NCBI GenBank assembly: GCA_020832465.1
Contig: JAFIER010000243.1
Span: 1-46,005 of the forward strand
Source of the DNA: Bernardetiaceae bacterium
GTDB lineage: Bacteria; Bacteroidota; Bacteroidia; Cytophagales; Bernardetiaceae
Reading direction: 5' to 3'
Length of the DNA: 46,005 nt
Part shown: positions 502 through 46,005 of the stretch, piece after piece
Numbering within the stretch: the stretch's first letter is position 1
How the letters are laid out: each line of letters starts with the position of its first letter
Translations under genes and position numbers: made by a program
Notes under the pieces: generated by a model
Database searches by the model: none
Told to the model about the DNA's origin: nothing
Seen by the model: the letters and a program-made list of their open reading frames with translations, nothing else

Positions 502-550
502 ATAAAATTAGAAATAACATTTTTTGAAAAAATGTTATTTCTAATTTTAT
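502..550. repeat. Hairpin family copy, perfect 24-bp stem
   Basis: Arms 502-525 and 527-550 are exact reverse complements around a single G. The core is AGAAATAACATTTTTT / AAAAAATGTTATTTCT. This is the A:T-rich member of the hairpin family found between many genes of the window. There is no open frame across it. Confidence 0.85.
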
Positions 551-7463: not shown

Positions 7464-7554
7464 GGTAGTGTATAACAAGTAATGCTTAGAACTAACAGTT
7501 CTTTGAGAACTGTTAGTTTTGAAAGACTTTGAGCATTACATCTTTAAGACTACC
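7464..7554. repeat. 91-bp nested palindrome, copy 1 of 2
   Basis: GGTAGT at the left and ACTACC at the right are inverted. Further in lie TAATGCTT / AGCATTA, and the centre is an AGAACTAACAGTTCT hairpin (7488-7520). The element recurs at 26752-26842 with a single base difference over 91 bases. It lies between two convergent genes. Confidence 0.9.
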
Positions 7555-7603
7555 AAAATTTGTAACTACTCAAGTGCTCAAAAGTGTGTATCACAGGTAT
7601 ATT

Positions 7604-7703
7604 TTAGAAATAACATTTCTCAAAGAAATGTTATTTCTAAGCCCATTTTTGCATAGGGTGAGGTTTGCAAACCCCACCCTATGCAAAAATGTACAGTAGT
7701 GTG
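7604..7703. repeat. Composite two-hairpin element (A plus B)
   Basis: Hairpin A has perfect 17-bp arms at 7604-7620 and 7624-7640. Hairpin B is a 48-bp palindrome at 7644-7691 (CATTTTTGCATAGGGTG ... CACCCTATGCAAAAATG around GGTTTGCAAACC) with one mismatched pair. The right end AATGTACAGTAGTGTG matches the terminal repeat of the copy at 45954-45969. It sits in the same convergent gap as the 91-bp element. Confidence 0.85.
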
Positions 7704-8974: not shown

Positions 8975-9048
8975 CATGGAGTATGACGCATTGCAAATCT
9001 AAGCAAAAAACCATGAATTTCTGTTATACAACTAAACATTCTCCAGCC

Positions 9049-9100
9049 AGAAATAATATTGCTCAAAAAAATGTTATTTCTAAGCCCATTTTTATATAGC
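9049..9100. repeat. Degenerate A-plus-B hairpin element
   Basis: AGAAATAATATT (9049-9060) and AATGTTATTTCT (9070-9081) form a weakened stem, followed by AAGCCCATTTTTATATAGC, a truncated start of hairpin B. It ends a few bases before the stop of the thioredoxin-like gene. The left part 8882-9048 holds the hybrid copy and otherwise nothing I recognise. Confidence 0.6.
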
Positions 9101-16214: not shown

Positions 16215-16309
16215 CATACTATTAGGCCTTAACAACCAGCAATAACACGTCTCAAAGATGTGTTATTGCTAAGCTCATTTTTCGCTATGTAAAAATGTAT
16301 AGAGGTATG
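16215..16309. repeat. Composite A-plus-B hairpin element, degenerate B
   Basis: Terminal repeats CATACTATTAG (from 16215) and AATGTATAGAGGTATG (16294-16309) are inverted and match the ends of the copy at 45866-45969. Hairpin A (16238-16252 / 16256-16270, AGCAATAACACGTCT type) pairs at 15 positions with one G-T. Hairpin B is shortened to CATTTTT ... AAAAATG. Confidence 0.7.
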
Positions 16310-16930: not shown

Positions 16931-16990
16931 CATGCCACTATAGATTCGCTAGCCAGAAATAACATTTCTTTGAGAAATGTTATTTCTGAA
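16931..16990. repeat. Hairpin family copy with left terminal repeat
   Basis: The left end CATGCCACTATAGATT (16931-16946) matches the terminal repeat CATACTACTATACATT at 13 of 16 positions and is followed by CGCTAGCCAG. The hairpin has perfect 16-bp arms, 16954-16969 and 16973-16988. The right half of the composite element is missing; the next gene's stop is at 17001. Confidence 0.75.
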
Positions 16991-19381: not shown

Positions 19382-19389
19382 GTACACAG

Positions 19390-19487
19390 GTGCATGACAA
19401 CTTTGCTAAATTAGCCCAGAGATAACATTTCTTTAAGAAATCTTATTTCTGAAACTATCTAAGCCGATTTAGCAACTTGACATACAC
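19390..19487. repeat. Hairpin family copy inside a different pair of terminal repeats
   Basis: The ends GTGCATGACAACTTTGCTAAAT (in 19390-19411) and ATTTAGCAACTTGACATACAC (19467-19487) are inverted, differing in the middle. The core hairpin is 19417-19432 / 19436-19451 with two mismatches. Related half-ends occur near 14647-14665 and 29437-29459 in reverse. Confidence 0.65.
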
Positions 19488-19555
19488 CCAAAGTACACAG
19501 CACTTCATTCTATCAGCATAAATCCTTTACTATATCAAATAAAAATTTAAAGGTC

Positions 19556-26751: not shown

Positions 26752-26842
26752 GGTAGTGTATAACAAGTAATGCTTAGAACTAACAGTTCTTTGAGAACTG
26801 TTAGTTTTGAAAGGCTTTGAGCATTACATCTTTAAGACTACC
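26752..26842. repeat. 91-bp nested palindrome, copy 2 of 2
   Basis: Differs from 7464-7554 at a single base (G for A in the GAAAG-CTTTGAG segment). Core hairpin at 26776-26808. It abuts the terminator at 26751. Confidence 0.9.
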
Positions 26843-27889: not shown

Positions 27890-27946
27890 AATACTACTAG
27901 ACATTCGCTAGCCAGCAATAACATTTCTCAAAGAAATGTTATTGCT
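27890..27946. repeat. Hairpin family copy with left terminal repeat
   Basis: The left end AATACTACTAGACATT (27890-27905) matches CATACTACTATACATT at 14 of 16 positions and leads into CGCTAGCCAG. The hairpin has perfect 15-bp arms, 27914-27928 and 27932-27946 (AGCAATAACATTTCT). The right half of the composite is absent. Confidence 0.75.
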
Positions 27947-29318: not shown

Positions 29319-29661
29319 AATTTTTGTTTTTGAAATGTAAAATAATATGGAATTTCCATGTGTACGTCGCAATTAGTCAATCTGCTTAGGGAATTTCAGC
29401 ACTCACATTTTTGGCAGAAATCTTATTTCTGGGCGAATTTAACAAAGTTGTCTTACACGCGAATTGCCTATAAGACGCAATTTTGTCAAAATCTTATGCA
29501 AGCAAGATAAGATTTATTTTTTTTTAACAAAAACAACTTACAGTCTATGCCTATTCGAGCTGCAAAAATCAAAAAAAATCAAAAAAATGATTTACAACTA
29601 CCGCAATTCTCAAAGATTGCCTAATTTTGCCACTCTTATTACCAAAACCCATTTAAAGATT
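29319..29661. other. Divergent intergenic stretch with a hairpin remnant
   Basis: The 343-bp gap holds a reduced hairpin copy, CAGAAAT-CTT-ATTTCTG (29415-29431). Beside it lies a half-end (AATTTAACAAAGTTGTCTTACAC, near 29437-29459) resembling the terminal repeat at 19390-19411. The rest is AT-rich with a long T-run near 29515-29525. No gene is supported; an open frame reaching back to 29464 lacks any leader signal. Confidence 0.5.
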
Positions 29662-30993: not shown

Positions 30994-31016
30994 ATAAAAA
31001 CACAATATACTTACAT

Positions 31017-31131
31017 CATACTTCTATACATTTTTGCAGGGTATGGGGTTTGCAAACCCCACGCCATGCAAAAATGGGCTTAGAAATAACGTATCTCAAA
31101 GAAATGTTATTTCTGACTAGCCAATGTATAG
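31017..31131. repeat. Composite hairpin element in reverse orientation (B then A)
   Basis: The left end CATACTTCTATACATT (31017-31032) is the terminal repeat of the family. Hairpin B is a 48-bp palindrome at 31029-31076 and hairpin A is at 31082-31096 / 31100-31114 with two mismatches. The right end GCCAATGTATAG matches the other terminus only partly. Confidence 0.8.
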
Positions 31132-31148
31132 GACTTACAATAAGATGT

Positions 31149-31182
31149 TTAGCCCTGAAAGTTTTGAAAACTGACAGGGCTA
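31149..31182. repeat. Hairpin of AGCCCTG type
   Basis: AGCCCTGAAAGTTTT pairs with AAAACTGACAGGGCT around one G, with a two-base mismatch. It lies beside the composite element and 70 bases before the next gene. Confidence 0.55.
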
Positions 31183-31252
31183 ACCTCTAAACTGACATCG
31201 CATTTGCCAATTATCTTTTTTTATTTCACATCAAAAAAAACAAAATAAAAAA

Positions 31253-31669: not shown

Positions 31670-31710
31670 CCCATTTAAAACCCCATCTTTTGGCTTTAAT
31701 ATTTGTGCAC

Positions 31711-31770
31711 CTGTAATAACGAAGCTACAGGTTCATTATAAACTTTCGAAGCTGGAGCTTCGGGCTACAG
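31711..31770. repeat. CGAAGCTGGAGCTTC family copy
   Basis: CTGTAATAACGAAGCTACAG and CGAAGCTGGAGCTTCGGGC with TACAG form an imperfect palindrome with CTGTA / TACAG ends. It is the third copy of the family seen at 14575-14615 and 21688-21726. Confidence 0.6.
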
Positions 31771-31874
31771 ATTTTAAAATTGTTAATACAGAAGCAACCT
31801 AAGGCAATTTTCCCACTTGACGTGCGCACTAAGTTTGGGCAATTTAAAAAAAACAAATAAATTTTGCTTGAAAT

Positions 31875-31906
31875 TTTGCATTGTACATGAATTTTGTCTA
31901 AATTTG
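31875..31906 (+). promoter_or_regulatory. Promoter of pnp with a long leader
   Basis: TTTG (31875-31878) and TAAATTTG (31899-31906) are spaced by 20 bases. Transcription from about 31913 would leave some 270 leader bases before pnp. The leader contains an out-of-frame ORF of 56 codons (32037-32204, stop at 32205-32207) that overlaps the pnp start. Confidence 0.55.
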
Positions 31907-32185
31907 AGTGCGCAATATATTTTGATGCGCCCATTGCTCATTATAGAAAGGCATATAAGCAGTAGCGGCAATGATGAGAAATAAAGCGGAGTAGTAAATA
32001 TTTAAAGCAGAACAGACAGACACTAAGTACGACTATATGCACCTTCCCTCTGAACTCATATCCACAGCGACCTACGCACAATTCTACTATGCCAATCGTA
32101 AGATAACGCAATTTGTACGCTTATACAAACAAGAATTTTCACATATTATATTTATTTCTAATCTTCATATTTGTTTTACAATACA

Positions 32186-34423
32186 ATGCAACTCAATCCA
32201 ATTATAAAAACCATCGAGCTCGAAGATGGTCGCACCATTTCTGTCGAAACGGGACGTTTAGCCAAGCAAGCCGATGGGGCTGTAGTAGTCAGAATGGGAA
32301 AAACCATGCTTCTCGCTACCGTAGTATCTAATAAGGATATTCGCGACGGTATGAACTTCTTACCTATGTCTGTAGAATACCAAGAAAAATTTGCAGCTGC
32401 GGGTAAAATACCAGGTGGTTTTATCAAACGTGAAGGACGGCTTTCAGAACATGAAATTTTAGTATGTCGCCTCGTCGACCGTGCATTGCGTCCTTTATTT
32501 CCAGATGATTTTCACGCTGAAACACAAATCAATATTTCGCTTATCTCTGCCGATGAGCAAGTGCCGCCAGATGCCTTAGCCGCTTTTGCTGCCTCGGCTG
32601 CCTTAGCCGTATCTGATGTACCAATAACAGATTACCTTTCAGAGGTTCGTTTAGTACGTAATGCTGAGGGTAAGTTTATCATAAATCCTGATTATAAAAC
32701 TATCGCAGAGTCTGACTTAGATATTATCGTAGGTGCAACTTATGATAACATTACGATGGTAGAAGGCTCTCTTAAAGAAGTACAAGAAGAAGACCTTTTA
32801 GAGGCGCTCAAAGTAGCTCATGAAGCGATTAAAGTGCAGTGCTTGCTACAGAAAGAACTGGCAGAAGCTACTGGAAAAACACAAAAAAGAGACTATGATA
32901 AGTATGAAACAGACCCAGAGCTGGCTCAGAAAATCATGGATGAGTTTTATCCTAAGTTTTACGCAATTGTAAGCTCACCAGAAGCGCATGACAAGGCTAC
33001 GCGTAGCGAAATGTTTAAGAAGGTAAAACAAGAATATATCGATAATTTGCCCGAAGACGAGGAGCATAACCTCTCTTTGATTAGTGAATATATTGGCAAA
33101 GCTCACAAAAAAGCAGCAAGAGACCTGGTACTCAAAACTCGTACAAGATTAGACGGACGCGCTTTAGACGAAATCAGACCGATTTGGGTTGATGTAGATT
33201 ATTTGCCTTCGGCGCACGGCTCGGCAGTATTTACACGTGGTGAAACACAAGCTCTAACTACTGTAACGCTTGGCACTAAGCTCGATGAGCAAATGATTGA
33301 TGGTGCTGTTATCTCTGGCTCGAGCAGATTTATTTTGCATTACAATTTTCCTGCATTTTCTACGGGCGAAGTGCGTCCTAACAGAGGTCCGGGCAGGCGT
33401 GAAATTGGTCATGGCAACTTAGCCGCTCGTGCTTTGCGATTTGCACTGCCACCAGATGATGAGAATCCTTATACAGTACGTGTGGTTTCTGATATTTTAG
33501 AATCCAATGGCTCATCTTCTATGGCAACGGTTTGTGCGGGTTCTTTAGCACTTATGGACGCTGGTATTCCCGTAAAAGCTGCTGTTTCAGGCATTGCAAT
33601 GGGTATGATTTCGGACGCAGAGACGGGTCAGTATGCGATTTTGAGTGATATTTTGGGTGATGAAGACCATTTAGGCGATATGGACTTTAAAATCACAGGT
33701 ACAGCCGATGGCATTACAGCTTGCCAAATGGACATCAAAGTAGATGGTCTCTCTTACGAAGTATTGAAAGAAGCCTTAGAGCAAGCCAAAAGAGGGCGTT
33801 TGCATATTTTGGGCGAGATGAACAAAGCCTTAGATAAGCCTCGTGAGGATATGAAAGAGCATGCACCTCGTTCTGTGAAGTTTGAAGTAGAGCGTGAGTT
33901 TATTGGTGCTATTATCGGACAAGGCGGTAAAGTCATTCAAGAAATTCAACGCACCACAGGCACAACGGTTATCATAGAAGAAATCAATAACAAAGGTGTA
34001 GTTACGATATTCGCTAACGATAAGCCTTCAATGGAAGCAGCGCATAACACGATTAAAGAAATTATCACACCGCCAGAGGTAGATAAAGTTTATGAAGGTG
34101 TTGTCAAAACAATTACAGAGTTTGGTGCGTTTATAGAATTTATGAAAGGCAAAGAAGGTCTATTGCATATTTCTGAAATTACTTGGGAACGCTTAGAATC
34201 TATGGACGGCGTAATGGAAGTAGGAGAAGAAGTGCAAGTTAAGCTCATCGAAGTCGACGAGCGCAGTGGCAAATTCCGCCTTTCACGCAAAGTACTCCTC
34301 CCACGTCCCGAAGGTTACGAAGATAGAAGTAGCAACCGAGGCGGCGGTGGTAGTGGTGGATTCCGACGTGGTGGTAGCGGTGGTAGTGGTGGTGGAAATC
34401 GCCGCCCCAATAATCGCAGATAG
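32186..34423 (+). CDS. pnp: Polyribonucleotide nucleotidyltransferase (PNPase)
   Basis: PNPase degrades RNA from the 3' end with phosphate. The 745-residue product has two RNase PH domains (the first with VSVEYQEKFAAAGKIPGGFIKREGR, the second with TRTRLDGRALDEIRPI, GPGRREIGHGNLAARAL and the catalytic DILGDEDHLGDMDFKITG). A KH domain (GAIIGQGGKVIQEIQRTTGT) and an S1 domain (GVVKTITEFGAFIEFMKGKEGLLHISEI) follow. A Gly/Arg-rich tail (from about 712) probably adds RNA binding. The ATG at 32186 is taken over the TTG 15 bases upstream. rpsO, the usual upstream neighbour in many bacteria, is absent; rpoD follows. Confidence 0.97.
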   Translation: MQLNPIIKTIELEDGRTISVETGRLAKQADGAVVVRMGKTMLLATVVSNKDIRDGMNFLPMSVEYQEKFAAAGKIPGGFIKREGRLSEHEILVCRLVDRALRPLFPDDFHAETQINISLISADEQVPPDALAAFAASAALAVSDVPITDYLSEVRLVRNAEGKFIINPDYKTIAESDLDIIVGATYDNITMVEGSLKEVQEEDLLEALKVAHEAIKVQCLLQKELAEATGKTQKRDYDKYETDPELAQKIMDEFYPKFYAIVSSPEAHDKATRSEMFKKVKQEYIDNLPEDEEHNLSLISEYIGKAHKKAARDLVLKTRTRLDGRALDEIRPIWVDVDYLPSAHGSAVFTRGETQALTTVTLGTKLDEQMIDGAVISGSSRFILHYNFPAFSTGEVRPNRGPGRREIGHGNLAARALRFALPPDDENPYTVRVVSDILESNGSSSMATVCAGSLALMDAGIPVKAAVSGIAMGMISDAETGQYAILSDILGDEDHLGDMDFKITGTADGITACQMDIKVDGLSYEVLKEALEQAKRGRLHILGEMNKALDKPREDMKEHAPRSVKFEVEREFIGAIIGQGGKVIQEIQRTTGTTVIIEEINNKGVVTIFANDKPSMEAAHNTIKEIITPPEVDKVYEGVVKTITEFGAFIEFMKGKEGLLHISEITWERLESMDGVMEVGEEVQVKLIEVDERSGKFRLSRKVLLPRPEGYEDRSSNRGGGGSGGFRRGGSGGSGGGNRRPNNRR

Positions 34424-34471
34424 TTTTTAAGCTAATTGCAACTTTATTATAGCTTTTTAGGTTCTGTCGTT

Positions 34472-34505
34472 GTGCTTTTGTAAAATTATAAATTTTGCAA
34501 AAGCA
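34472..34505 (+). terminator. Hairpin downstream of pnp
   Basis: GTGCTTTTGTAAAATT (34472-34487) pairs with AATTTTGCAAAAGCAC (34490-34505) with one G-T pair. No T-run follows, so termination is uncertain; it may instead protect the 3' end. Confidence 0.45.
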
Positions 34506-34676
34506 CATTACAGAATTTTTGCTTTTGCAAAATTATGCTAAGTTGTTTTTGGATAGCAAGTATGCAATCTGAAAAAAGCCAAAAAAACAACAAAAAAGAA
34601 ACTAATCGTTTTTTTTTTCGTTTACATGTCAGTTCTATGCGTTTTATAGCAATTACATTAACAAACATTACACTCG

Positions 34677-35540
34677 ATGCGACAACTAAAAATCAGTAAG
34701 CAGATAACTAATCGCGAAAGCCAATCCTTAGATAAATATTTACAAGAAATTGGTAAAGTTGATTTGCTTACACCCGATGAAGAGGTCGAACTAGCTAAAC
34801 GTATCCGAGAAGGCGACCAAGTAGCCCTCGAGAAGCTAACCAAAGCAAATTTAAGATTTGTGGTCTCAGTTGCCAAGCAATACCAAAATCAAGGTCTTTC
34901 CCTTGGAGATTTAATCAATGAAGGCAATCTCGGTCTTATTAAAGCCGCACAACGCTTTGACGAAACGCGTGGTTTTAAGTTTATTTCTTATGCTGTTTGG
35001 TGGATACGTCAATCTATTTTGCAAGCACTTGCAGAGCAATCCCGTATTGTACGCCTGCCACTCAACAGAGTAGGTTCGCTCAACAAAATTTCTAAAACAT
35101 TCTCCGAACTCGAGCAAAGGTACGAAAGAGAACCCTCGCCAGACGAACTCGCCGACGAGCTCGAACTAACCTCTGCAGAAGTCGTCGATACACTTAAAAT
35201 ATCTGGAAGGCACGTCTCTATGGACGCACCCTTTGTGCAAGGCGAAGAAAATACTCTGTACGATGTACTCGAAAATGACTTGGAAGAAAAACCCGATTCC
35301 GAGCTTATGAACGACTCTCTCAGAAGAGAAGTACAGCGTGCACTATCTACCCTCACACAGCGTGAAGCTGATGTCATTTCACTCTATTTCGGACTCAACG
35401 GAGAGCATCAGCTCACCCTTGAAGAAATCGGCGAAAGATTTGGACTTACAAGAGAGCGCGTCAGACAAATAAAAGAAAAAGCCATTAGAAGGCTTAGACA
35501 TACTTCAAGAAGTAAATCGCTTAAACCTTATTTGGGATAA
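34677..35540 (+). CDS. rpoD: Principal sigma factor (RpoD/SigA)
   Basis: The 287-residue product is the short primary sigma factor of Bacteroidota, without region 1.1. Region 1.2 starts [27 protein letters not shown]. Region 2 has [30 protein letters not shown] and the -10 reading part [17 protein letters not shown]. Region 3 follows, and region 4.2 ends in [30 protein letters not shown]. It recognises the TTTG / TAnnTTTG promoters seen here. It lies 253 bases after pnp in the order often seen in the phylum. Confidence 0.97.
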
Positions 35541-35565
35541 GCCAATACTTTATAATTATTTTTGC

Positions 35566-35605
35566 AAACTTACCAAGCCGTAATGACTTGGTGAGTTTCT
35601 TTATT
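35566..35605 (+). terminator. Terminator of rpoD
   Basis: AAACTTACCAAG (35566-35577) pairs with CTTGGTGAGTTT (35587-35598) with one T-G pair, followed by CTTTATTT. Confidence 0.75.
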
Positions 35606-35624
35606 TCGAACCTTTCCGAATACA

Positions 35625-36518
35625 ATGATTAAAGCCAATATTTTAGTAACAGGTGCTAACGGACAACTCGGGCAAGCACTACAAAAAATTGCAAAAAACT
35701 ACCCTTTTTCCTTTCATTTTGCCAACGCTGATACTTTGGATATCACCGATAGCAAAGCCGTTGCACAGCTTTTTGATATGAAACCTTTTGATTTTTGTAT
35801 CAATGCCGCTGCTTATACAGCCGTAGATAAAGCCGAAAGCGAAAAGTTAGACTGTTATGAAGTAAACGTGCTCGGCGTTACTAATCTGGCTAAAGCATGC
35901 CTACAGCATAATGTTGTCTGCCTACATATATCTACTGATTTTGTCTTTGACGGACAAAAAAGTAGCCCATACACAGAAGAGGACCAGACCAATCCGATAG
36001 GCGTATATGCACAAAGCAAGTTACAAGGAGAGCGCACACTGCTCAAGCATCAGCCAAAAAGTTTGATTTTGCGCACCTCTTGGCTATATTCAGAATACCG
36101 AAAAAACTTTGTCAAAACCGTACTGCAGCTCGTCAAAAAGCAAAATAAAATTCGTATTGTCGCAGACCAAATAGGCTCACCCACCTATGCCGGAGACCTC
36201 GCTGCTGCCCTGCTACAAATCATTGAACAAATACACGAAAAGGAAGTAGAAAATCAAAACATCTGGGGTATTTATCACTATTGCAACGAAGGGGTAGCCT
36301 CTTGGTATGATTTGGCAAAAGCCGTACTTTACATGGAAAGCATTCCCACGACAGTTACACCTATTTTAAGTGAAGATTATCCCACGCCTGCCCAAAGACC
36401 TAAGTATAGCGTACTCAATAATCACAAAATCAAAGATACCTTTAATCTGCATATTCCCTATTGGCGAAATAGCTTGCAGCAATGCTTAGGCTATCTCGAA
36501 GAGGAAGAGGTGTATTAA
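35625..36518 (+). CDS. rfbD: dTDP-4-dehydrorhamnose reductase
   Basis: The enzyme reduces dTDP-4-keto-rhamnose to dTDP-rhamnose, the sugar donor for surface polysaccharides. The 297-residue short-chain reductase shows the NADPH motif LVTGANGQLGQAL, INAAAYTAVDKAE, HISTDFVFDG, the active-site YAQSK, and RTSWLYSEYRKNF and VADQIGSPTYAGDLA, all typical of RfbD/RmlD. The other rml genes are not in the window. It faces the potassium channel gene with only 58 bases between the stops, the one convergent junction without a hairpin repeat. Confidence 0.93.
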   Translation: MIKANILVTGANGQLGQALQKIAKNYPFSFHFANADTLDITDSKAVAQLFDMKPFDFCINAAAYTAVDKAESEKLDCYEVNVLGVTNLAKACLQHNVVCLHISTDFVFDGQKSSPYTEEDQTNPIGVYAQSKLQGERTLLKHQPKSLILRTSWLYSEYRKNFVKTVLQLVKKQNKIRIVADQIGSPTYAGDLAAALLQIIEQIHEKEVENQNIWGIYHYCNEGVASWYDLAKAVLYMESIPTTVTPILSEDYPTPAQRPKYSVLNNHKIKDTFNLHIPYWRNSLQQCLGYLEEEEVY

Positions 36519-36576
36519 GCATTATAGAAACCATTTGATGATAATATAAATATATGCCAGCTATCCGCACTTTAGC

Positions 36577-37419
36577 TTAGTCTTCAAAAAGTGGGTATTG
36601 ATGCTCATGGGCGCACAAGTCATGACCACATCGGCTACAATAATTAGGCGTGCTATCCTTACTCATAAACTGGCAACGAGGGCAGGTGTTGAAATTAGAC
36701 TCATTTTCTTTGGCAATTTCAGCAGTAATAATGCCCGTGGGCACTGCAATAATGCCATAACCCAAAAGCATAATAAAAGATGCAATAAACTTGCCCATAT
36801 CCGTTTGCGGCACAATATCCCCATAGCCCACTGTAGTAATCGTGATAATAGCCCAATACACAGATAATGGAATACTTTGAAAACCATTTTTGCCCTCTTC
36901 CACCACATACATAAAACTCCCCAAAATAATAACCAAGGTAAGCAAACCCAAAATAAAAACAGATATTTTGTAAGAGCTCGCACGCAAAGCGCGGCTCAAA
37001 TGCTGCGCAGCTAAAAAATGCTGCCCAAGTTTCATAATCCTGAACATACGCATAAGGCGCACAAGCCGTATGCTAAAAAGATATTGCATATTAGGACTCA
37101 GAAACAGCACAAAAACAGGAAGCACTGCCAGCAAGTCTATCATACCCCAAAAACTAAAAATATACTTCCAAGATTTCGGGTGGCTATAAATACGCAAAAC
37201 ATATTCTATCAAAAATAACAAACTGAAAAACCACTCCAGATAGTAAAATACGTAAGTATATCGCTCTCGAAGTTCTACTATACTTTCCAAAAGCACTAAG
37301 GAAACACTCACAACAATAGCTATCAACAAAAGCACATCAAAAAGCTGACCTGCTTTTGTATCCGTACCGAAGATAACCCGGTGTATTTTATCTTGTAAAC
37401 GTTTATGATTTATGCCCAT
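36577..37419 (-). CDS. Voltage-gated-type potassium channel with C-terminal zinc ribbon
   Basis: A 280-residue six-helix channel of the Kv fold. The S4 helix carries four spaced arginines (R118, R121, R124, R127 in SIRLVRLMRMFRIMK), which suggests voltage sensing. The selectivity filter is TVGYGD at 196-201, so it conducts potassium. After the S6 helix (212-233) a short linker leads to a zinc ribbon with Cys246, Cys249, Cys261 and Cys264, then a CxHxH tail (269-273). Zinc ribbons are uncommon at the end of such channels. The protease gene upstream, 47 bases away on the same strand, carries a similar ribbon; the two are probably cotranscribed. Confidence 0.9.
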   Translation of the reverse strand: MGINHKRLQDKIHRVIFGTDTKAGQLFDVLLLIAIVVSVSLVLLESIVELRERYTYVFYYLEWFFSLLFLIEYVLRIYSHPKSWKYIFSFWGMIDLLAVLPVFVLFLSPNMQYLFSIRLVRLMRMFRIMKLGQHFLAAQHLSRALRASSYKISVFILGLLTLVIILGSFMYVVEEGKNGFQSIPLSVYWAIITITTVGYGDIVPQTDMGKFIASFIMLLGYGIIAVPTGIITAEIAKENESNFNTCPRCQFMSKDSTPNYCSRCGHDLCAHEHQYPLFED

Positions 37420-37466
37420 ATTCTTTATGATAATCTCTTACGCCTAAAACCTAATCGTATTAAGGG

Positions 37467-38558
37467 CTAATCCTCCTCCTTGTCCCGCCAGCGTGCATCG
37501 TATTGATTGACAAGCAGGTTATCATAGTCATCAGCTTGCTGAAGGAGGTATTTGAGTTGTGCAATCCCACTTTTTTCTTTCAAATATTGACTATGGATAG
37601 CCAAAGACAGTACAATATCCTGATGATGTATGCTAAACCTCAAACCTTTGAGTTTGTAGTTTTCGCGTAGTAAGTACTCATAAATTGCACCAATATTTTT
37701 CTTTGGAAGTTTGCATAGATAAGCATCACCAAAAATATAACCTGTATCGGGATTATAAGATAAGAAAATAGTAGCGCTGCCTTCGTCTATATCCCAGCGG
37801 TTAGGACCGCTACGTGATAGTTTGACATTTTTACCTGTTTTGTCTATCATTTGCTCTATCATAGCCACTATGCCTGTTACCTCGTAAGTCTCTCCTGTAT
37901 GAATTTTAGGAATTTTTGCACCGCAATGTGGGCAGTATTCTTGGCTCTGAATTTCGCTTTCTAAAACAAAATTTTGACAAGAAGCACATCGAATCATCGG
38001 CTGTCTCTGATGCGCTTCAAACTCTTTTAAAGCCTCCAACACATACTCTACTGGCAGGGCAAAGCCTAAGTCATTGCCGTTACGGATAATAAACGTATTG
38101 ACACCTACGATTTCCCCACGCTCGCCGACCAAGGGGCCGCCGCTATTGCCAGGGTTAATCGCTGCATCTACCTGAATGTAATGAATATTTTTGTACAAAC
38201 GGCGCGCCTTCGAGACAATACCCTGCGTAGCCGTGTATTTAAGCCCATAGGGATGCCCAATAGCAATGATAGAATCTCCATCATTTACCTTACCAAAGAC
38301 AGTCTGCGTATCGCTAAATTGGCTCATATCGTGCGTATCGGGCAACAGGATAAATGCCAAATCGTGGCGTGTATCTATAAAATATACATCGGCTAATGTT
38401 TTTGCAAAATGACGACTGCTAATCGTTACCTCTTGACAGTTTTTTACTACGTGATAATTTGTAACAATCAAACGATACTCGGGCAGATAAAAGCCCGTAC
38501 CCGCACCGTAAGGTGTAGCTATTTGAATAACGATATTTTTATAATCTGCAATAGTCAT
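37467..38558 (-). CDS. Cytosolic trypsin-like serine protease with zinc ribbon
   Basis: A 363-residue protein with a chymotrypsin-fold domain of the HtrA/DegP kind: His36 in VTNYHVV, Asp66 in TRHDLAFILLP and Ser139 in NPGNSGGPLVGE. There is no signal peptide and no PDZ domain. A zinc ribbon follows (Cys191, Cys194, Cys209, Cys212). The C-terminal part (about 225-340) has the look of a YbjN or type III chaperone-like fold (GPNRWDIDEGSATIFLSY, NYKLKGLRFSIHHQDIVLSL), a guess by pattern. The combination suggests a regulated, protein-binding protease in the cytoplasm. It is upstream of the channel gene on one transcript. Confidence 0.87.
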   Translation of the reverse strand: MTIADYKNIVIQIATPYGAGTGFYLPEYRLIVTNYHVVKNCQEVTISSRHFAKTLADVYFIDTRHDLAFILLPDTHDMSQFSDTQTVFGKVNDGDSIIAIGHPYGLKYTATQGIVSKARRLYKNIHYIQVDAAINPGNSGGPLVGERGEIVGVNTFIIRNGNDLGFALPVEYVLEALKEFEAHQRQPMIRCASCQNFVLESEIQSQEYCPHCGAKIPKIHTGETYEVTGIVAMIEQMIDKTGKNVKLSRSGPNRWDIDEGSATIFLSYNPDTGYIFGDAYLCKLPKKNIGAIYEYLLRENYKLKGLRFSIHHQDIVLSLAIHSQYLKEKSGIAQLKYLLQQADDYDNLLVNQYDARWRDKEED

Positions 38559-38590
38559 ATTTTTTTATAAAAATTAGAAAGTCATTTTTT

Positions 38591-38643
38591 AGCAGCCCTC
38601 AGAAATAACATTTCTCTGAGAAATGTTATTTCTGAGGGCTGCT
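38591..38643. repeat. Hairpin family copy, perfect 26-bp stem
   Basis: Arms 38591-38616 and 38618-38643 are exact complements around one base, the longest perfect stem in the family. The flank CAGCCCTCAGAAATAAC differs from other copies on both arms together. Confidence 0.9.
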
Positions 38644-38656
38644 ACTTTGCTTTATT

Positions 38657-38744
38657 GGTTCTTCTAAACTTTATACGGAAATATGCTTAAAACCCCCGAT
38701 TTTAATCGTGGGAGCTAAAAAGCCGTATAAATCTTAGTAGAACC
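38657..38744. repeat. MITE-like element with 22-bp terminal repeats
   Basis: Ends GGTTCTTCTAAACTTTATAC and GTATAAATCTTAGTAGAACC (extended to 22 bases) pair at 19 of 22 positions. An internal palindrome CCCCCGATTTTAATCGTGGG lies at 38693-38712. A longer copy is at 556-672. It ends three bases before the aminopeptidase stop. Confidence 0.75.
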
Positions 38745-38747
38745 GCT

Positions 38748-41333
38748 TTACTCTAATGCACGCTGAAACTCGATAACACGCCTATCTGTCTCTTGCTCTC
38801 GAATCGGCGTAAGGTCATATTCAATTTCATCTTGATTCAAAATTATCACAATCAGTGCCTGATAAGCATCTTTGCGCACCTGAAAATAGCTGTGATGCTG
38901 TGCTAAATCAGCCAGATAATCAAGCCCTTTTTGCTTTACATCAACTGGCTGATTGATTAAATATTGCGTAAGCAAACTAAGTAAAAAACTCAACTCACGT
39001 CCTGATTTTGTATCTAAGGTCTGCGTAAACCAATCGAGTTTGTTCGGAATACCTAAGCTACTGTAAAAATCAGCTAATGAATATACAATATGCCGTTCCA
39101 TTTCACCTTCTAATGGTTCTATTTTATCTAAAGCCTCTTCGCCTTCTTGATTTAGATAGGCAAAAATCGTGTTACTTTTTACGTAATACGAACTATCTTT
39201 CATCGTTTGTGCTAAAAAATCGCTATCGTAGCGCAAAGAAGCCACAATATCAACAGCCGAAGCACGCACCGTAGAGTTAGGGTCTGAAAATGCTAAACCC
39301 TTGATTTGAGCCAAATAATTATCCAAATCCTGTCCTTTATATTCGCCTAAGCTACGCATTGCATTTTCGCGAATTGCCCAAAACTCATGCCCTAAAAGTG
39401 CGGAAAGTTGCGTACGCACACGCTCATCACCTACATAAGACGAAAGCTGGCTAATCGCCTCTTGTTGCAATAAATAATAATCATCGAGCTGGCTCATTGC
39501 CAAATAAGCCCTCAAATCGTGCGTCTCGTCTATGTAGGCGGGTAGCAACCGATAAGGGTCTAAGATTACATAATCAGGCATAGCAGCTGCCTCAAAGCTA
39601 AAATAGGCACTATCTCCCTTTATCTGTATGGGTTGATGGTATTGCTTATCGCCAATTTGATAAAAAATTTGCGTGTTTAGTTCGTAAATAGGGGTATAAC
39701 GGCTATCTTGTAATTGCTGAATCCTAACTTGAATTTGATTATCGGAAAAAGTATAACTCATTTGCAACTCTGGGTGGCCGCGCTGGAGAAACCATTGGTC
39801 AAAGAAGCGTTTTAAGTCCCTTCCTGTAATATGCTCGAAAGCCAAGCGCAAATCGTGAATCTCGACGCTCGAATAGGCGTGTTTTTTTAGGTAATAACGA
39901 AGCGAAGCAAAAAAAGCCTCATCGCCAATCTCATGACGGAGCAGATGCAGAATTAGGGCTGATTTAGCATAGGAATGGCTATCAAACATATCGTCCCTAT
40001 CGGCATAATGATAGCGAATCGCAGGCTCTCTTTTAAACATCGCTTCATAAAAATAAGCATTGCGCGCATCAAAACGCTCAATTTCAGCCTCACGCTCCCC
40101 ATGGCGATGTGCCTGCCACAAATATTCAAAATACTTGGCAAAGCCCTCATTTAAAGGTAAGTTTGCCCACGACTCACAAGTAACCACATTGCCAAACCAT
40201 TGATGTGCTAACTCATGCGCAATAATGCCCTCGTAGTTATAGTCCGAAAGTGCTTGCCGACTCTCTACTTGTAATGATTCATTAAAAATAGAAATACTTG
40301 TGTTTTCCATAGCCCCTGATACAAAATCGCGCACAACCACCTGTGCATACTTATCCCAAGGAAAAGGAAAATCCAAAAGTTCGGAAAAATAATCTATCAT
40401 CTGTGGCGTTTCGGCAAAAACTGCCTCAGCCACTTCTGCATATTCAGGCTCGACGTAATAGCTCAAAGGCAAACCGCTCGAGGTTTTTTTCTGAATATGC
40501 GCAAAATCACCAATCACAATAGCTGTGAGATAAGGTGCATGCGGTTTTTCTTGTTTCCAATAATCTCGGCGCAAGCCATTGCCATTTTTTTCAGAAGAGA
40601 CAAGCCTGCCATTAGATATGGTTATGAACGAATCAGGGACAGTAAGATAAATATCTAAGCTCGTTTTGATGTTGGGTTTGTCAAAAGTGGGAAACCAAAC
40701 AGAGTTGTCTTCTGTCTCACCTTGCGTCCAAACTTGTGTAGGACGCTTTGGATAATATCCCGTAGGGTTGATAAAATACAAACCTTGCTCTTTAATTTCA
40801 TCGCTTTGTAGCTCGTCCATAGCCCGCTTAGGCTTACTGGTATAATCGATGCTTATCTGTATAACTTGCTCTTTGTCGTATATTGTATCGAGTAAAATCT
40901 CGAGCGTAACGCCGTCATAGGCATAGCGCAAAGAATCAGTTTGCTTATCTTTGAGCAACAAAACTCGATAAATATCCATTGCTTTAGCATCGAGCTTAAT
41001 TCTATCTTGTGGATAAAAATAAGGACGCATCGTAAGCAAAGCATTGCTGCGCACTTGCTGCTTTTCAAAATCAAAAGATAAATCTAAGCGTGTGTTAAGG
41101 AGTTCAAAATGTCGCTCATAAGCCGGACGGTACGGGCTTGGGGGCGAAAGCCACTCGGGCTTTTCCTCTTCGGGCTCGAAACCTACAATTTTTTCTCGCG
41201 TCGGAACTTGGTTTTCGGAGGACTCTGCTAATGCCTGTTGCACTTTTTTTTCACCTGTTTTGCAGGAGTTTAGCGTGCATAACAAAGTAATTATCAGAAT
41301 CCAATAAGCAAAGTTTATGGTATGTCTATTCAT
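38748..41333 (-). CDS. M1 family metallopeptidase lipoprotein
   Basis: An 861-residue zinc aminopeptidase anchored as a lipoprotein (signal ending LLCTLNSC). The substrate motif is GAMENTSISI and the zinc site is HELAHQWFG (His373, Glu374, His377) with the third ligand Glu in PLNEGFAKYFEY. The C-terminal part is made of HEAT-like helical repeats (from about 590 on, REQETDRRVI at the end). Start choice: the ATG at 41331-41333 follows a promoter with perfect spacing at 41352-41382, which rules out the longer frame reaching 41381. It probably trims peptides in the periplasm or at the surface. Confidence 0.93.
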   Translation of the reverse strand: MNRHTINFAYWILIITLLCTLNSCKTGEKKVQQALAESSENQVPTREKIVGFEPEEEKPEWLSPPSPYRPAYERHFELLNTRLDLSFDFEKQQVRSNALLTMRPYFYPQDRIKLDAKAMDIYRVLLLKDKQTDSLRYAYDGVTLEILLDTIYDKEQVIQISIDYTSKPKRAMDELQSDEIKEQGLYFINPTGYYPKRPTQVWTQGETEDNSVWFPTFDKPNIKTSLDIYLTVPDSFITISNGRLVSSEKNGNGLRRDYWKQEKPHAPYLTAIVIGDFAHIQKKTSSGLPLSYYVEPEYAEVAEAVFAETPQMIDYFSELLDFPFPWDKYAQVVVRDFVSGAMENTSISIFNESLQVESRQALSDYNYEGIIAHELAHQWFGNVVTCESWANLPLNEGFAKYFEYLWQAHRHGEREAEIERFDARNAYFYEAMFKREPAIRYHYADRDDMFDSHSYAKSALILHLLRHEIGDEAFFASLRYYLKKHAYSSVEIHDLRLAFEHITGRDLKRFFDQWFLQRGHPELQMSYTFSDNQIQVRIQQLQDSRYTPIYELNTQIFYQIGDKQYHQPIQIKGDSAYFSFEAAAMPDYVILDPYRLLPAYIDETHDLRAYLAMSQLDDYYLLQQEAISQLSSYVGDERVRTQLSALLGHEFWAIRENAMRSLGEYKGQDLDNYLAQIKGLAFSDPNSTVRASAVDIVASLRYDSDFLAQTMKDSSYYVKSNTIFAYLNQEGEEALDKIEPLEGEMERHIVYSLADFYSSLGIPNKLDWFTQTLDTKSGRELSFLLSLLTQYLINQPVDVKQKGLDYLADLAQHHSYFQVRKDAYQALIVIILNQDEIEYDLTPIREQETDRRVIEFQRALE

Positions 41334-41351
41334 TTCGCACTTTTTTTGTAC

Positions 41352-41382
41352 CAAAAGTAAGCAATCCACAGGTTTTTTCAAA
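41352..41382 (-). promoter_or_regulatory. Promoter of the M1 peptidase gene
   Basis: On the minus strand TTTG (41379-41382) and TACTTTTG (41352-41359) are spaced by 19 bases. The leader would be only about 12 bases long. Confidence 0.65.
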
Positions 41383-41507
41383 ATTTTCCACGCTTTGAAA
41401 ACAAATAATATTCAATAAATAGGGCTATGCTCGCTTTTCAAAACCCCTTATTGCAAATAAAATCAATAAAAATCCTCTTTGAGTATAGAGTTTTCAAAAA
41501 ACCTTTT

Positions 41508-41515
41508 TACTTTTG
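41508..41515 (+). promoter_or_regulatory. -7 box of recN
   Basis: TACTTTTG fits TAnnTTTG; the nearest TTTG upstream (41478-41481) is 26 bases away, too far for the usual spacing. The leader would carry the repeat at 41533-41591. Confidence 0.35.
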
Positions 41516-41532
41516 CGTTGTATGCTTCCTTT

Positions 41533-41591
41533 GTAGCATAGCCTTTAGGCTGTGTCTGTAGTTGCTATACAGACTAAGGTCTGTTATACAG
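41533..41591. repeat. Repeat with AGCCTTTAGGCT and CAGAC / GTCTG palindromes
   Basis: TGTAGCATAGCCTTTAGGC, TGTGTCTGTAG and then CTATACAGACTAAGGTCTGTTATACAG form a string of short palindromes in the recN leader. From memory, similar AGCAACTACAGACACAGCC sequences are common interspersed repeats in Bacteroidota. Confidence 0.5.
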
Positions 41592-41625
41592 ATTTTTATT
41601 TATTCAAACACAATAGTGCATTTTT

Positions 41626-43281
41626 ATGCTGCGACGTTTATATATCCGTAATTATGCTTTAATTGAAGAGTTAGGCATTGATTTTTCAGCGCATTTGAAT
41701 GTCATCACTGGCGAAACGGGTGCGGGTAAGTCTATTTTAAGGGGTGCGCTGGGTTTGCTTACTGGCGAGCGTGCTGATACGAAAGTTTTGCTCAAAGAGG
41801 GAGAAAATTGTATTGTAGAGGGGCTTTTTGAGCTTTCGCAATACAATCTAAAAAGCATATTCGATGCTGAAGATTTAGAGTACGAACCGCTATGTCTTAT
41901 CCGTCGGCAGATTAGCCCCTCCGGACGCTCTCGGGCTTTTGTCAATGATACGCCCGTGCGTCTTGAGTCGCTCAAAAAAATTGGTGTGCGTTTAATGGAT
42001 ATTCACGCTCAGCACGATACCTTGCGCCTCACCTCTAATGAATATCAGCTCGAAGTGCTCGATGCCTATGCCAATGTCGAAGCGGAGCTAAAAACTTACC
42101 AAAGCTGTTTTAAAACCTATCAACAAGCCCTACAAGCCTTTCAAAAATTACAAAAAGATGCTAATGAATTGCGTAAAGCACACGATTATAATCGCTTTTT
42201 GTGGGAAGAGTTGGATAGAGCTAACTTAGATGCGCTCGATCAAGCAGATATGGAACAGACACTCGAGCGTCTTGAGAACGTCGAGCTTATCAAACAAAGT
42301 TTGCAAAGTAGCAATAAAGCCTTGACTGACGATGAGTTTTCCGTAGATATGATATTACAAGAAGCAGCGAATGCACTGGGCAAAGCCCGGAATTTTTCAG
42401 AAGAGTACAATGCGCTTTATGAACGTTTGCAAAGTGCTATTATAGAGATTAGAGACATCGCTTCCGAAATTGAAAGCGAGTTTGAAAATATCGATACCGA
42501 CGAGGAAGCTGCTGAAAAAATTCGTCATAGCCTGAACTTACTCTACGACCTCGAGCGCAAGCACCACGTCGAAACACTCGAGGAGCTTATCGCTATTCGC
42601 AATGATTTGGAAGAAAAAGTTGGGCAAGTCGAAAACTTCGATGAAGCCTTAGCCCAACGCCAAAAAGCCCTTGCAGATGCCGAAACGCACTTAAAAAAAG
42701 CAGCCCAAGACCTACGACAAAAACGCCAGCAAGCTATACCCGATACAGAAACTGAAATTGGCGAACTACTCAAAGAACTTGGCATGCCACAGGCGCGTTT
42801 TCAAATTCAAATGCGTGAAATTGAGTTTGCACCCTTAGGTGCAGATGAAATTGAGTTTTATTTCTCTGCCAACCAAGGGGTGCGTATGCAACCTATGCGT
42901 GAAGTCGCCTCCGGTGGTGAGTTCTCGAGGCTTATGCTTTGTATCAAATATCGCTTGGCAAAGCATATTGCATTGCCAACCATTGTTTTTGATGAAATTG
43001 ATACAGGCGTTTCGGGAGAAATTGCACTCAAAATGGGAAAAATGATTCACGATATGTCAAGCTCGCATCAAGTGCTGACAATCAGCCATCTACCTCAAAT
43101 TGCTGCCAAAGGTGAAGCGCATTACTACGTCTATAAAGACCTCTCTAACGAGCGCACCATATCCAAAATCCGCCGTCTCTCAGACGACGAGCGTGTGCAA
43201 GAAATTGCACAAATGATTGGTGGCGATAAGCCCGGTACGCATATTTATGAAAGTGCAAAAGAGCTTTTAAAAGGAATTTAA
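41626..43281 (+). CDS. recN: DNA repair protein RecN
   Basis: RecN is an SMC-like ATPase that helps hold broken DNA ends during recombination. The 551-residue product has Walker A at GETGAGKS (29-36), a central coiled coil (about 160-365, rich in Glu, Lys and Leu), the signature REVASGGEFSRLMLCIK, Walker B TIVFDEIDTGVSG and the late HLPQIAAKG. The family start MLRRLYIRNYALIEEL fits the ATG at 41626. The DNA repair role is inferred from the family. A hairpin repeat separates it from the TonB receptor gene. Confidence 0.96.
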   Translation: MLRRLYIRNYALIEELGIDFSAHLNVITGETGAGKSILRGALGLLTGERADTKVLLKEGENCIVEGLFELSQYNLKSIFDAEDLEYEPLCLIRRQISPSGRSRAFVNDTPVRLESLKKIGVRLMDIHAQHDTLRLTSNEYQLEVLDAYANVEAELKTYQSCFKTYQQALQAFQKLQKDANELRKAHDYNRFLWEELDRANLDALDQADMEQTLERLENVELIKQSLQSSNKALTDDEFSVDMILQEAANALGKARNFSEEYNALYERLQSAIIEIRDIASEIESEFENIDTDEEAAEKIRHSLNLLYDLERKHHVETLEELIAIRNDLEEKVGQVENFDEALAQRQKALADAETHLKKAAQDLRQKRQQAIPDTETEIGELLKELGMPQARFQIQMREIEFAPLGADEIEFYFSANQGVRMQPMREVASGGEFSRLMLCIKYRLAKHIALPTIVFDEIDTGVSGEIALKMGKMIHDMSSSHQVLTISHLPQIAAKGEAHYYVYKDLSNERTISKIRRLSDDERVQEIAQMIGGDKPGTHIYESAKELLKGI

Positions 43282-43303
43282 AAGCAGGAAGTTAAGCATC
43301 TTG

Positions 43304-43350
43304 CCAGCAGCACTAACCAGTTCTTGAAGAACTGTTAGTGCTGTTGCTGG
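43304..43350. repeat. Hairpin family copy, AGCACTAAC type
   Basis: CAGCACTAACCAGTTCTT (43308-43325) pairs with AAGAACTGTTAGTGCTG (43327-43343) with one bulged C, and CCAG / CTGG extends the stem to 43304-43350. Two base pairs differ from the main consensus on both arms. Confidence 0.8.
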
Positions 43351-43397
43351 ACTCTAAATAATCTCTAATACACTACAAATTCAAAAACCAAATTTTT

Positions 43398-45806
43398 ATG
43401 AAAATCATCGCATGGCTTATTTTGAGCCTGTGCCTGCCCTTTATTGTGCAAGCCCAAACCCTTATGGTTCAGGATAAAAAAACGGGAGAGCCTATCGAAA
43501 TGGTAATGGTAGGCAACAAAGATGGCCGTAATTTTGTACTAACCAATCAGCAAGGGCAGGCAGATATATCGGGCTTGGATAAAAGCAGAATGTTTCAAAT
43601 TGATATTTTAGGCTACAAAAAAGCGATATTGAGTTTTGAAGATTTAGAAAAAAGCAGCTTTGTAGTGCTTCTTGAGTCTCAATTTTTGATGATAGATGAA
43701 GTCGTCGTATCGGCTACCCGCTGGCAGCAAGCATCGAGCGATGTACCCGCTAAAATTATAAGTATATCCCCACAAGAAGTGGCTTTACAAAATCCACAAA
43801 CTACTGCCGACTTGCTGGGCATATCGGGTAAAGTATTCATACAAAAAAGCCAACAAGGAGGCGGAAGCCCCATGATACGTGGTTTTTCTACGAATCGTTT
43901 ACTCTATAGCATAGACGGTGTGCGTATGAATACTGCTATTTTCAGAAGTGGCAATATTCAAAATGTCATATCTTTAGACCCCTTTGCTATCGAACGTACG
44001 GAGGTGCTCTTCGGCCCCAGCTCTACGATGTATGGCAGCGATGCGATTGGGGGAGTAATGAGCTTTCGCACACTTACGCCAGAGTTAGCGCAAAGCGATG
44101 AGCCACTTATAAAAGGAAAAGCTTCCGCACGCTACTCATCTGCTAATCAAGAAAAAACAGGACATTTTGATGTCAATATCGGTTGGAAAAAATGGGCATT
44201 AGTCAGTAGCTTTAGCTCTTTTGATTTCGACCATTTGAGGCAGGGCAACCACGGCCCGCAGGATTATGTGCGCCCTTTTCACGTGCAGCGTCAAGATAGT
44301 GTTGATAGGGTCGTGGCGCAAAGCGACCCCTTGTTGCAAGTGCCCTCGGCTTATTCTCAAATCAATATGATGCAAAAAGTACGTTTTAAGCCATCTGAAA
44401 ACTGGGATTTACAATATGCTTTCCACTATTCCGAAACCTCATCTTACGGCAGATATGATAGGCACAATCGCATGCAAAACGGACTCCCAAGGTATGGAGA
44501 GTGGGATTACGGACCGCAAAAATGGCTAATGAACCACCTACAAATCAGTCATCAAAATCAAAGTTTTTTATATGAAAGCCTCAATATTCGCTTAGCACAC
44601 CAATCATTCGGCGAGAGCCGCATAGACCGCACTTTCAACCGTAATAATCGCCGCATCAGAGAGGAAAATGTAGAGGCTTTTTCAGCAAATATAGATTTTA
44701 CAAAAAAAATTACACCCCAAAATACGCTATTTTATGGCGCTGAATATGTATATAATGAAGTGCACTCCATAGGCACAGAGCAAGACATCCGCACGGGAGT
44801 AATCACAGCTGGCGTACCTCGCTATCCACAAGCAGGCTGGCAGTCATTGGGTATCTACCTCAACAACCAACATAAATTTTCGGATAAACTACTTCTACAA
44901 ATGGCTTTGCGCTATAATCAAACAGCTATTGACGCACGCTTTGATAATGAAATTTATAACTTGCCTTTTGGCGACGAGGCTACACTTCGAGAGGGCGGTT
45001 TTACGGGTAGCTTAGGGACGGTGTATCGCCCATCGGAGAGCTGGGTTTTTAGTGCCAATTTCGCCACAGCATTTCGTGCGCCCAATGTTGATGACATCGG
45101 AAAAATTTTTGATTCAGAACCCGGTGCCGTTACAATTCCGAACCCCAATTTGCAAGCCGAATATGCCTATAATATAGATTTGAATATTGCCAAAATTTTT
45201 GCCGAAGTCGTAAAAATTGATTTGAGTGTGTATTACACGCAACTACAAAATGCACTTGTAAGGCGAAACTTCTCGCTTAATGGACAAGATAGCATTCTTT
45301 ACGACGATGTCATGAGCCGTGTGCAAGCGATTCAAAATGCTGCAACTGCCAATGTCTATGGTTTACAGTTGGGTGTAGAGGTGAAATTGCCCATAGGCTT
45401 TTCCTTTACTTCAGATTTTAATTATCAAGAAGGACGTGAAGAGCTCGATGATGGAAGTGTAAGTGCTTCGCGCCATGCACCGCCTTGGTTCGGAGTTTCT
45501 CGATTGCGCTACAAATACAAAAAACTGGAGTGGCAGTGTTATGCCGTGTATCAAGGCGAACGCAAACATGAAAATTTAGCTTTCGAAGAGCAAGGAAAAA
45601 CCGAAATCTACGCTTTAGATGCCAATGGCAATACCTACGCACCCGCTTGGTACACCCTGAACTTCAAAGTACGCTATAATTTTACAGAAAAATTAAGCCT
45701 AAGTAGTGGACTTGAAAACATCACCGACCGTCGCTATCGTCCCTATAGCTCGGGCATTTCGGGCGCAGGGCGAAATTTTATCATGGCTTTACTGGCTAAG
45801 TTTTAA
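43398..45806 (+). CDS. TonB-dependent receptor, heme-receptor-like
   Basis: An 802-residue outer-membrane receptor. The signal peptide ends near VQAQ (residue 20). A carboxypeptidase-regulatory domain (about 22-90) is followed by the plug (EVVVSATR, then RGFSTNRLLYSIDGVRMN and VLFGPSSTMYGSDAIGGVMSF) and the barrel, which ends in FIMALLAKF with the terminal Phe needed for insertion. In the barrel lie FRAP (in FATAFRAPNVDD) and NPNL (in IPNPNLQAEYAY), boxes known from heme and hemoglobin receptors. The His that normally lies between the boxes is missing, so heme is a hint only. Confidence 0.92.
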   Translation: MKIIAWLILSLCLPFIVQAQTLMVQDKKTGEPIEMVMVGNKDGRNFVLTNQQGQADISGLDKSRMFQIDILGYKKAILSFEDLEKSSFVVLLESQFLMIDEVVVSATRWQQASSDVPAKIISISPQEVALQNPQTTADLLGISGKVFIQKSQQGGGSPMIRGFSTNRLLYSIDGVRMNTAIFRSGNIQNVISLDPFAIERTEVLFGPSSTMYGSDAIGGVMSFRTLTPELAQSDEPLIKGKASARYSSANQEKTGHFDVNIGWKKWALVSSFSSFDFDHLRQGNHGPQDYVRPFHVQRQDSVDRVVAQSDPLLQVPSAYSQINMMQKVRFKPSENWDLQYAFHYSETSSYGRYDRHNRMQNGLPRYGEWDYGPQKWLMNHLQISHQNQSFLYESLNIRLAHQSFGESRIDRTFNRNNRRIREENVEAFSANIDFTKKITPQNTLFYGAEYVYNEVHSIGTEQDIRTGVITAGVPRYPQAGWQSLGIYLNNQHKFSDKLLLQMALRYNQTAIDARFDNEIYNLPFGDEATLREGGFTGSLGTVYRPSESWVFSANFATAFRAPNVDDIGKIFDSEPGAVTIPNPNLQAEYAYNIDLNIAKIFAEVVKIDLSVYYTQLQNALVRRNFSLNGQDSILYDDVMSRVQAIQNAATANVYGLQLGVEVKLPIGFSFTSDFNYQEGREELDDGSVSASRHAPPWFGVSRLRYKYKKLEWQCYAVYQGERKHENLAFEEQGKTEIYALDANGNTYAPAWYTLNFKVRYNFTEKLSLSSGLENITDRRYRPYSSGISGAGRNFIMALLAKF

Positions 45807-45865
45807 AGCTAAAATACTGAGTAGCTTACGAACGATTGCGTTTTTTTTTGTGTTTGAAAAATGAT

Positions 45866-45969
45866 CATACTAATAGACATTTTCCATCAAAAAATGACAG
45901 GTCTAAGCTCATTTTTGCATAGCTTGGGGTTTGCAAACCCCACGCTATGCAAAAATGTATAGTAGTATG
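45866..45969. repeat. Composite element with complete 16-bp terminal repeats
   Basis: CATACTAATAGACATT (45866-45881) and AATGTATAGTAGTATG (45954-45969) are inverted, matching at 14 of 16 positions. Hairpin B is a 48-bp palindrome at 45910-45957; hairpin A is degraded to ACATTTTCCATCAAAAAATGACAGG-like sequence. This copy defines the ends of the family. The rest of the tail to 46005 holds nothing recognised. Confidence 0.8.
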
Positions 45970-46005
45970 AAACATAATAAGAAAGCACTGGTTCTTATTA
46001 CACAA

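Follow-up and report, generated by a model that had tools for sequence, protein, structure and literature searches.

Palindromic cassettes common to several element families in the interior of a MITE from a Bernardetiaceae genome

Described repeats and the E1 element

REP and REPIN sequences, found with the RAYT transposase, are short palindromes that occur in hundreds of copies, and the BOX elements of Streptococcus pneumoniae are modular repeats made of sub-units; we know of no BOX modules that are common to families with different ends. MITEs mobilised by IS elements are described as short and non-coding, with terminal inverted repeats, target duplications of fixed length and many copies, and truncated MITEs may resemble REPs (both from excerpts of PMC10969869). 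The Rickettsia palindromic elements (RPE) are ~105–150 bp long and lie in frame inside coding genes (excerpts of PMC10969869 and PMC2229807), and the CIR elements of Caulobacter and Brucella consist of two hairpin arms and a linker, given without a terminal inverted repeat in the excerpt of PMC2229807.

Here we describe E1, an element from the 4.6-Mb draft genome (289 contigs, designated G000) of a Bernardetiaceae bacterium, of which the window, the whole stretch of 46,005 nucleotides that was analysed, is contig C19. Between its inverted ends E1 carries two palindromes, hairpin A (33 bp) and hairpin B (48 bp), joined by a short linker. In this modular build E1 is similar to BOX, while hairpin A resembles the REPs as a short palindrome in hundreds of copies; unlike REP/REPIN with RAYT, the loci (2.0–3.3 kb) of three Y1-type transposase genes contained no match to A or B. 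Hairpin A resembles RPE, as excerpted, in lying in frame inside genes, which it does in other genomes only, but differs in being 33 bp long and mostly intergenic. With CIR, as far as the excerpt describes it, E1 has in common the two linked hairpin arms, and it differs by its terminal inverted repeat and target duplications. The closest likeness is to the IS-mobilised MITEs (PMC10969869, excerpt), in anatomy, fixed duplication, copy number and an IS with the same ends, but the interior of E1 is common to other families, and E1 is more than an internally deleted form of the IS that was found.

Among the matches listed in a literature search, titles and abstract starts held no description of these elements, and those of papers containing one of the searched motifs concerned unrelated subjects. 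Named records with the same palindrome, again among the matches listed, were from Cytophagales or were Bacteroidetes MAGs. An Rfam search of the window for known structured RNAs at gathering score gave 0 matches.

E1 as a MITE and its copies in the window

The ends of E1 read CATACTACTA... and its typical length is 122 bp. Within a sample of 707,309 bases, comprising the window and 40 stretches picked around B hairpins and thus carrying a sampling bias, we identified 89 candidate units with inward-facing ends and hairpin A or B inside. The 9-bp flanks matched perfectly in 27 of these candidates, while 14 more had one mismatch and 9 had two, giving duplications in 41/89 at ≤1 mismatch, compared with 0.17% for flanks mispaired between units, and in 50/89 at ≤2 mismatches. 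Flank-match lengths from 5 to 12 other than 9 bp were seen in 0–2 of the 89 candidates. The 39 candidates without a duplication at two mismatches include some decayed or false pairs. Units with duplications ranged from 47 to ~150 bp, most often 122 bp, and are short and non-coding with terminal inverted repeats; of the 50 that show a duplication at ≤2 mismatches, 44 contain hairpin A. By anatomy and duplications, E1 is firmly identified as a real MITE. The sequence-only reading of the window had proposed this, and had suggested looking for the ends across the genome, for target-site duplications and for a transposase gene with the same ends; the ends recur across E1 copies, the duplications are 9 bp long in 50/89 candidates, and a transposase gene lies within an IS of this genome that has such ends (see below).

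The individual copies are collected in Table 1. That reading described inverted ends common to its units, and CATACTACTATACATT indeed has 10 matches in the window at ≤3 mismatches versus a shuffle mean of 0.53; the linker AAGC(C/T)C was likewise recovered, at 45866–45969 and 31017–31131. The two hairpins had been assigned to all three units, which holds in part: A is found in 31017–31131 and 16215–16309 but not in 45866–45969, the left arm of which gave no match to the A pattern even at ≤9 mismatches, and B on GGTTTGCAAACC is found in 45866–45969 and 31017–31131, with only the outer stem left in 16215–16309. The 9-mers flanking 45866–45969 (AAAAATGAT / AAACATAAT) are equal at 7/9 positions, and the duplication at 16215–16309 (GGAATAGCA/GCAATAGCA) at 8/9. 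As for the four proposed partial copies, those at 16931–16987 and 27890–27946 are left halves with hairpin A, the one at 9049–9100 has a broken B and goes with an E1 end that matches at 9025 with 3 mismatches, and the one at 7604–7703 turned out to be a chimera, in which an E8 left half is joined at hairpin A to an E1 right half.

Table 1. Elements, hairpins and terminal repeats located in the window
Feature	Position	Strand	Details
Solo hairpin A with extended stem	510..542	.	
E2 element	7464..7554	-	8-bp duplication CAAATTTT; hairpin A at 7488-7520
Chimera	7557..7703	+	E8 left half (~7557-7600), hairpin A (7606-7638), E1 right half (7639-7703)
E1 left end, hairpin A, linker and broken B	9025..9100	+	hairpin A at 9049-9081
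E1 copy	16215..16309	+	hairpin A present; hairpin B shortened to outer stem
Hairpin A of 16215-16309 copy	16238..16270	.	
E1 left half and hairpin A, then break	16931..16987	+	
E3 element, ends near GGGTGTACG	19388..19489	+	hairpin A at 19418-19450
E2 element	26752..26842	-	hairpin A at 26776-26808; duplication 7/8
E1 left half and hairpin A, then break	27890..27946	+	
Hairpin A between E3-type halves	29398..29430	.	
E1 copy	31017..31131	-	~7 bp missing from left end
Hairpin B of 31017-31131 copy	31029..31076	.	
Hairpin A of 31017-31131 copy	31082..31114	.	
Solo hairpin A at tip of longer G+C-rich stem	38601..38633	.	stem GCAGCCCTC/GAGGGCTGC
E1 copy	45866..45969	+	right half intact; left arm degenerate, without proper hairpin A
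Left terminal inverted repeat CATACTAATAGACATT	45866..45881	+	2 mismatches
Hairpin B palindrome, core GGTTTGCAAACC	45910..45957	.	in 45866-45969 copy
Right terminal inverted repeat CATACTACTATACATT	45954..45969	-	0 mismatches

A search of the 707-kb sample for an autonomous partner, as pairs of ends 500–3500 bp apart with a 9-bp duplication, found none. A PF01609 profile search of the genome detected three transposase genes, one of them in an IS with E1-like ends on contig C277. This IS is 1224 bp long, has CATACTACTAGACAAAA at both ends and encodes a 384-aa transposase, and the first 14 bp of both ends are those of a common E1 end variant. The best model for the transposase is NF033591 (NCBIfam IS4_2), at 149.7 bits slightly below the cut-off of 152, and its DDE_Tnp_1 domain (Pfam) scores 78.9 bits against a cut-off of 23. 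A single full copy of the IS was found in the genome, and since its right end is also the end of the contig, its own duplication is unreadable; inside the IS there was no match to A or B.

Homologues of this transposase at E ≤1e-40 are present in 9 other genomes among 291. Scanning 11 homologue loci for ends and a duplication gave two perfect cases and four loci with no candidate (including L102), the rest being weak or ambiguous. Two homologues from sister genomes, L160 and L161, each lie between perfect 9-bp duplications (TGTATTTGT and ACTATTTCC); their 16-bp ends, TACAGTACTGGACATG, are identical and equal the E1 end variant CATACTACTGGACATT at 12/16 positions. At L112 (contig C194), an E1 together with the last 31 bp of the IS right end is bracketed by perfect 9-bp GGTTTGGAT repeats. 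The likeliest reading is a single transposition event in which one MITE end and one IS end took part. The case for the IS4-like element as the partner of E1 is strong, and E1 apparently relies for its movement on a separate transposase, one that recognises the ends of the element. We infer that this is the transposase encoded on C277, which would act in trans on the non-autonomous E1 by recognising ends of ~14 bp, and would produce the 9-bp target duplications.

Hairpins A and B in other element families

At ≤2 mismatches, hairpin A is present in 779 copies in the genome, with 0 matches for the reversed control pattern, and looser settings gave 244 matches in the 707-kb sample. Clustering of the flanks at 241 of these places (three too close to a stretch end were omitted) grouped the halves around A mainly into pairs of E1a with E1b (54 places) and E2a with E2b (20), plus E3 types; the partner was unassigned for E1b at 33 places and for E1a at 12, and 57/241 matched no family on either side. 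E2 (ends GGTAGT...) has perfect 8-bp duplications in 16/20 elements. For E3 (ends GGGTGTACG...), perfect 8-bp duplications were seen in 15/38 rows, some of them counted on both strands, and a second listing of 32 rows gave 9 perfect and 8 one-mismatch 8-bp duplications; the E3 element at 19388–19489 has no in-register duplication, a copy of AAGTACAC being one base off. A search of the genome for IS1595 (PF12762) as partner of the families with 8-bp duplications gave no match. Three E5 elements in the sample contain hairpin A, and their ends match those of an IS701-family element (L103:1284–2501). The E8 family has ends GGTAACTACTCAG with hairpin A inside, one full copy having been read (L065); a search for E8 by loose ends returned 132 rows, mostly false, and was discarded. 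For 44 of 45 pairs of family halves, 2–13 of the 24 positions compared outside A are equal; the E3b and E5b halves are equal at 17/24, so these two families may be related. Hairpin A is therefore common to at least five element families, as told apart by their ends.

A long E3 variant (L072:905–1112) contains palindromes around CGAAGCT...AGCTTCG that repeat at several places in the sample. The pairing of E3a with E6 at five places was rejected as a chimera, as E6 is the interior of this long variant, which has a perfect 8-bp duplication.

Among 291 genomes of the sampled order, hairpin A is present in eight: 779 copies in G000, 79 in G089, 50 in G151, 29 in G160, 22 in G128, two in G122 and one each in G003 and G102, a patchy spread that fits transfer or loss. 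In another Cytophagales MAG, L098:3625–3708 carries A and a second palindrome in frame, in the HATPase region of a histidine kinase (978 aa). Hairpin A also lies in frame at L086:4926–4958, in a protein of 527 aa that has no Pfam match, and at L100:6825–6857, in a 607-aa FAN1-type protein.

Across the 4.6-Mb genome, the hairpin B pattern at ≤3 mismatches is matched 133 times on the forward and 129 times on the reverse strand, a single palindrome often being scored on both; the reversed control gave 0 matches. All 10 further genomes that we found in the family are from genera other than the window's own. In seven genomes of one sister genus (g2), A had 0 matches at ≤2 mismatches, and all seven contain B-like palindromes. 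We read 27 of these B loci, one of which was without a B match and one a repeat, leaving 25 places; by eye and with clusters, 11, 10 and 3 of these fall in three MITE-like families and one in none, the second family mixing two kinds of ends. Hairpin B is thus found in at least three MITE-like families of the sister genus. Both sides of its stem change together there (pairs 5–9 are compensatory) and GGTTTGCAAACC is nearly invariant, and among 70 copies from the window's own genome, covariation in the stem hardly goes beyond chance. In hairpin A, compensatory changes at pairs 2, 3, 5, 11 and 14 are well above independence, and the pairing so kept may stem from selection acting on the hairpin or from repair in which one arm corrects the other. 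The loops of A in E1 are about equally frequent in both orientations (TTG 44 and CAA 38 of 103), and those in E2 are in a single orientation (20/20), which fits a recent spread of E2. Two functions were considered for the hairpins: a DNA uptake sequence was rejected, as 296/322 arms are paired rather than forming a single unpaired motif, and an intrinsic terminator is not supported, no A or B within 26006–46005 having been listed as terminator-like.

In about 12 copies read by hand, halves of two families meet at hairpin A (7557–7703 in the window, and L056, L057, L058, L060, L062, L063, L064, L066, L067, L070 and L075 elsewhere); these were located via anchors on A or the E1 linker, which favours such copies, and were read by eye without a control. 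The chimera in the window aligns to two E8 left halves with scores of 34 and 37, the maximum of 500 shuffles being 17. At L066:6411–6530, A and then an E1 right fragment lie between the left and right halves of an E3, the whole being enclosed by an 8-bp duplication with one mismatch, and at L056 an E8-type arm (loop GGC) and an E1-type arm (loop TTG) form one palindrome. Elsewhere, at L050:1757–2000, the hairpin A of an E1 copy is split by ~200 bp that end in an E3-type end. Since A and B lie inside other families, and halves of different families are joined, we regard E1 as a MITE whose cassettes also belong to other transposon families; as a description, an interior made up of palindromic cassettes common to element families is firm. 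The sequence-only reading overlooked that A and B are not specific to the E1 MITE and that its partial copies include at least one chimera.

Origin of the palindromic interior

We consider it probable that E1 is a MITE mobilised in trans, with an interior of palindromic cassettes exchanged between element families. The interior, which was not found in the partner IS, would then be composed of the A and B cassettes common to several families, A being found in elements that differ in their ends, in the length of their duplications and, for one of them, in the kind of transposase. Most likely, ectopic recombination or template switching at the palindromes that the families share would have carried the cassettes from one family to another and joined halves of different elements, so that the palindrome itself may be the point of exchange.

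Hairpin A could instead be an independent mobile palindrome whose targets are the tips of hairpins already present, those of MITEs (only the most common carriers) as well as single inverted repeats, and whose insertion leaves no target duplication; we regard this as unlikely. In its favour, the flanking inverted repeats of 58 solo copies are longer than those of mispaired flanks (mean 3.0 versus 1.03 bp), although solo copies could be what is left of decayed MITEs. The near-equal loop orientations in E1 point the same way, as do the in-frame copies (33 bp being 11 codons) within frames of 978, 607 and 527 aa, which account for 3 of 22 loci from other genomes holding 28 A-like matches; the HATPase match of the 978-aa histidine kinase spans 137 residues for 106 profile positions. 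However, no empty site was found, the FAN1-type homologue compared being too divergent at the place, and in our own sample only 2/244 copies of A lie in open frames of ≥120 codons, one of these frames being short and the other copy being near the frame start. Deletion between short repeats can account for the E1 copies without A at L039 and L052, and no gene for such movement was identified.

Two further explanations assign a function to the hairpins. If A and B were required in the transposition substrate, their folding would bring the ends together for the transposase, and six copies folded as single strands do exceed shuffles in stability by a wide margin (z -4.8 to -13.8), with the terminal repeats also paired in four of the six; but elements with inverted repeats fold well anyway, and E1 copies of 47, 71 and 85 bp have perfect duplications without A, the 47-bp copy lacking both full hairpins, unless A was deleted later, which makes this role distinctly doubtful. 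Least probable of all is an ordinary MITE with hairpins selected as transcription terminators, the sharing of A and B then reflecting common terminator use. Solo copies of A do lie between convergent genes in 18/53 intergenic cases against ~10.6 expected from intergenic length and simple gene calls, yet E1 copies with duplications are unbiased (6/42 intergenic copies convergent), A and B in E1 are followed by AAGCCC and TATAG rather than a T-run, and a shared function alone does not explain identity over 33 and 48 bp.

The exchange of cassettes between families remains our preferred reading, and the recurrence of both hairpins in other elements of this genome and of relatives suggests that palindromic parts are common to small mobile elements or pass between them. 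A broader version, which we put forward tentatively and at somewhat under an even chance, is that the Cytophagales hold a pool of cassettes with conserved pairing, including at least A and B, from which transposon families with different transposases assemble MITEs combinatorially; the cassettes of such a pool would move between families as independent units or via recombination at the hairpin. The interiors of MITEs are commonly regarded as leftovers of the parent IS. Here, the interior is common to families with different ends, with different transposases where these are known, and across genera, and compensatory changes at several positions maintain its pairing. Closed genomes and simple recombination assays can thereby put directly to the test where MITE interiors come from and whether palindromes play a role in joining mobile elements.
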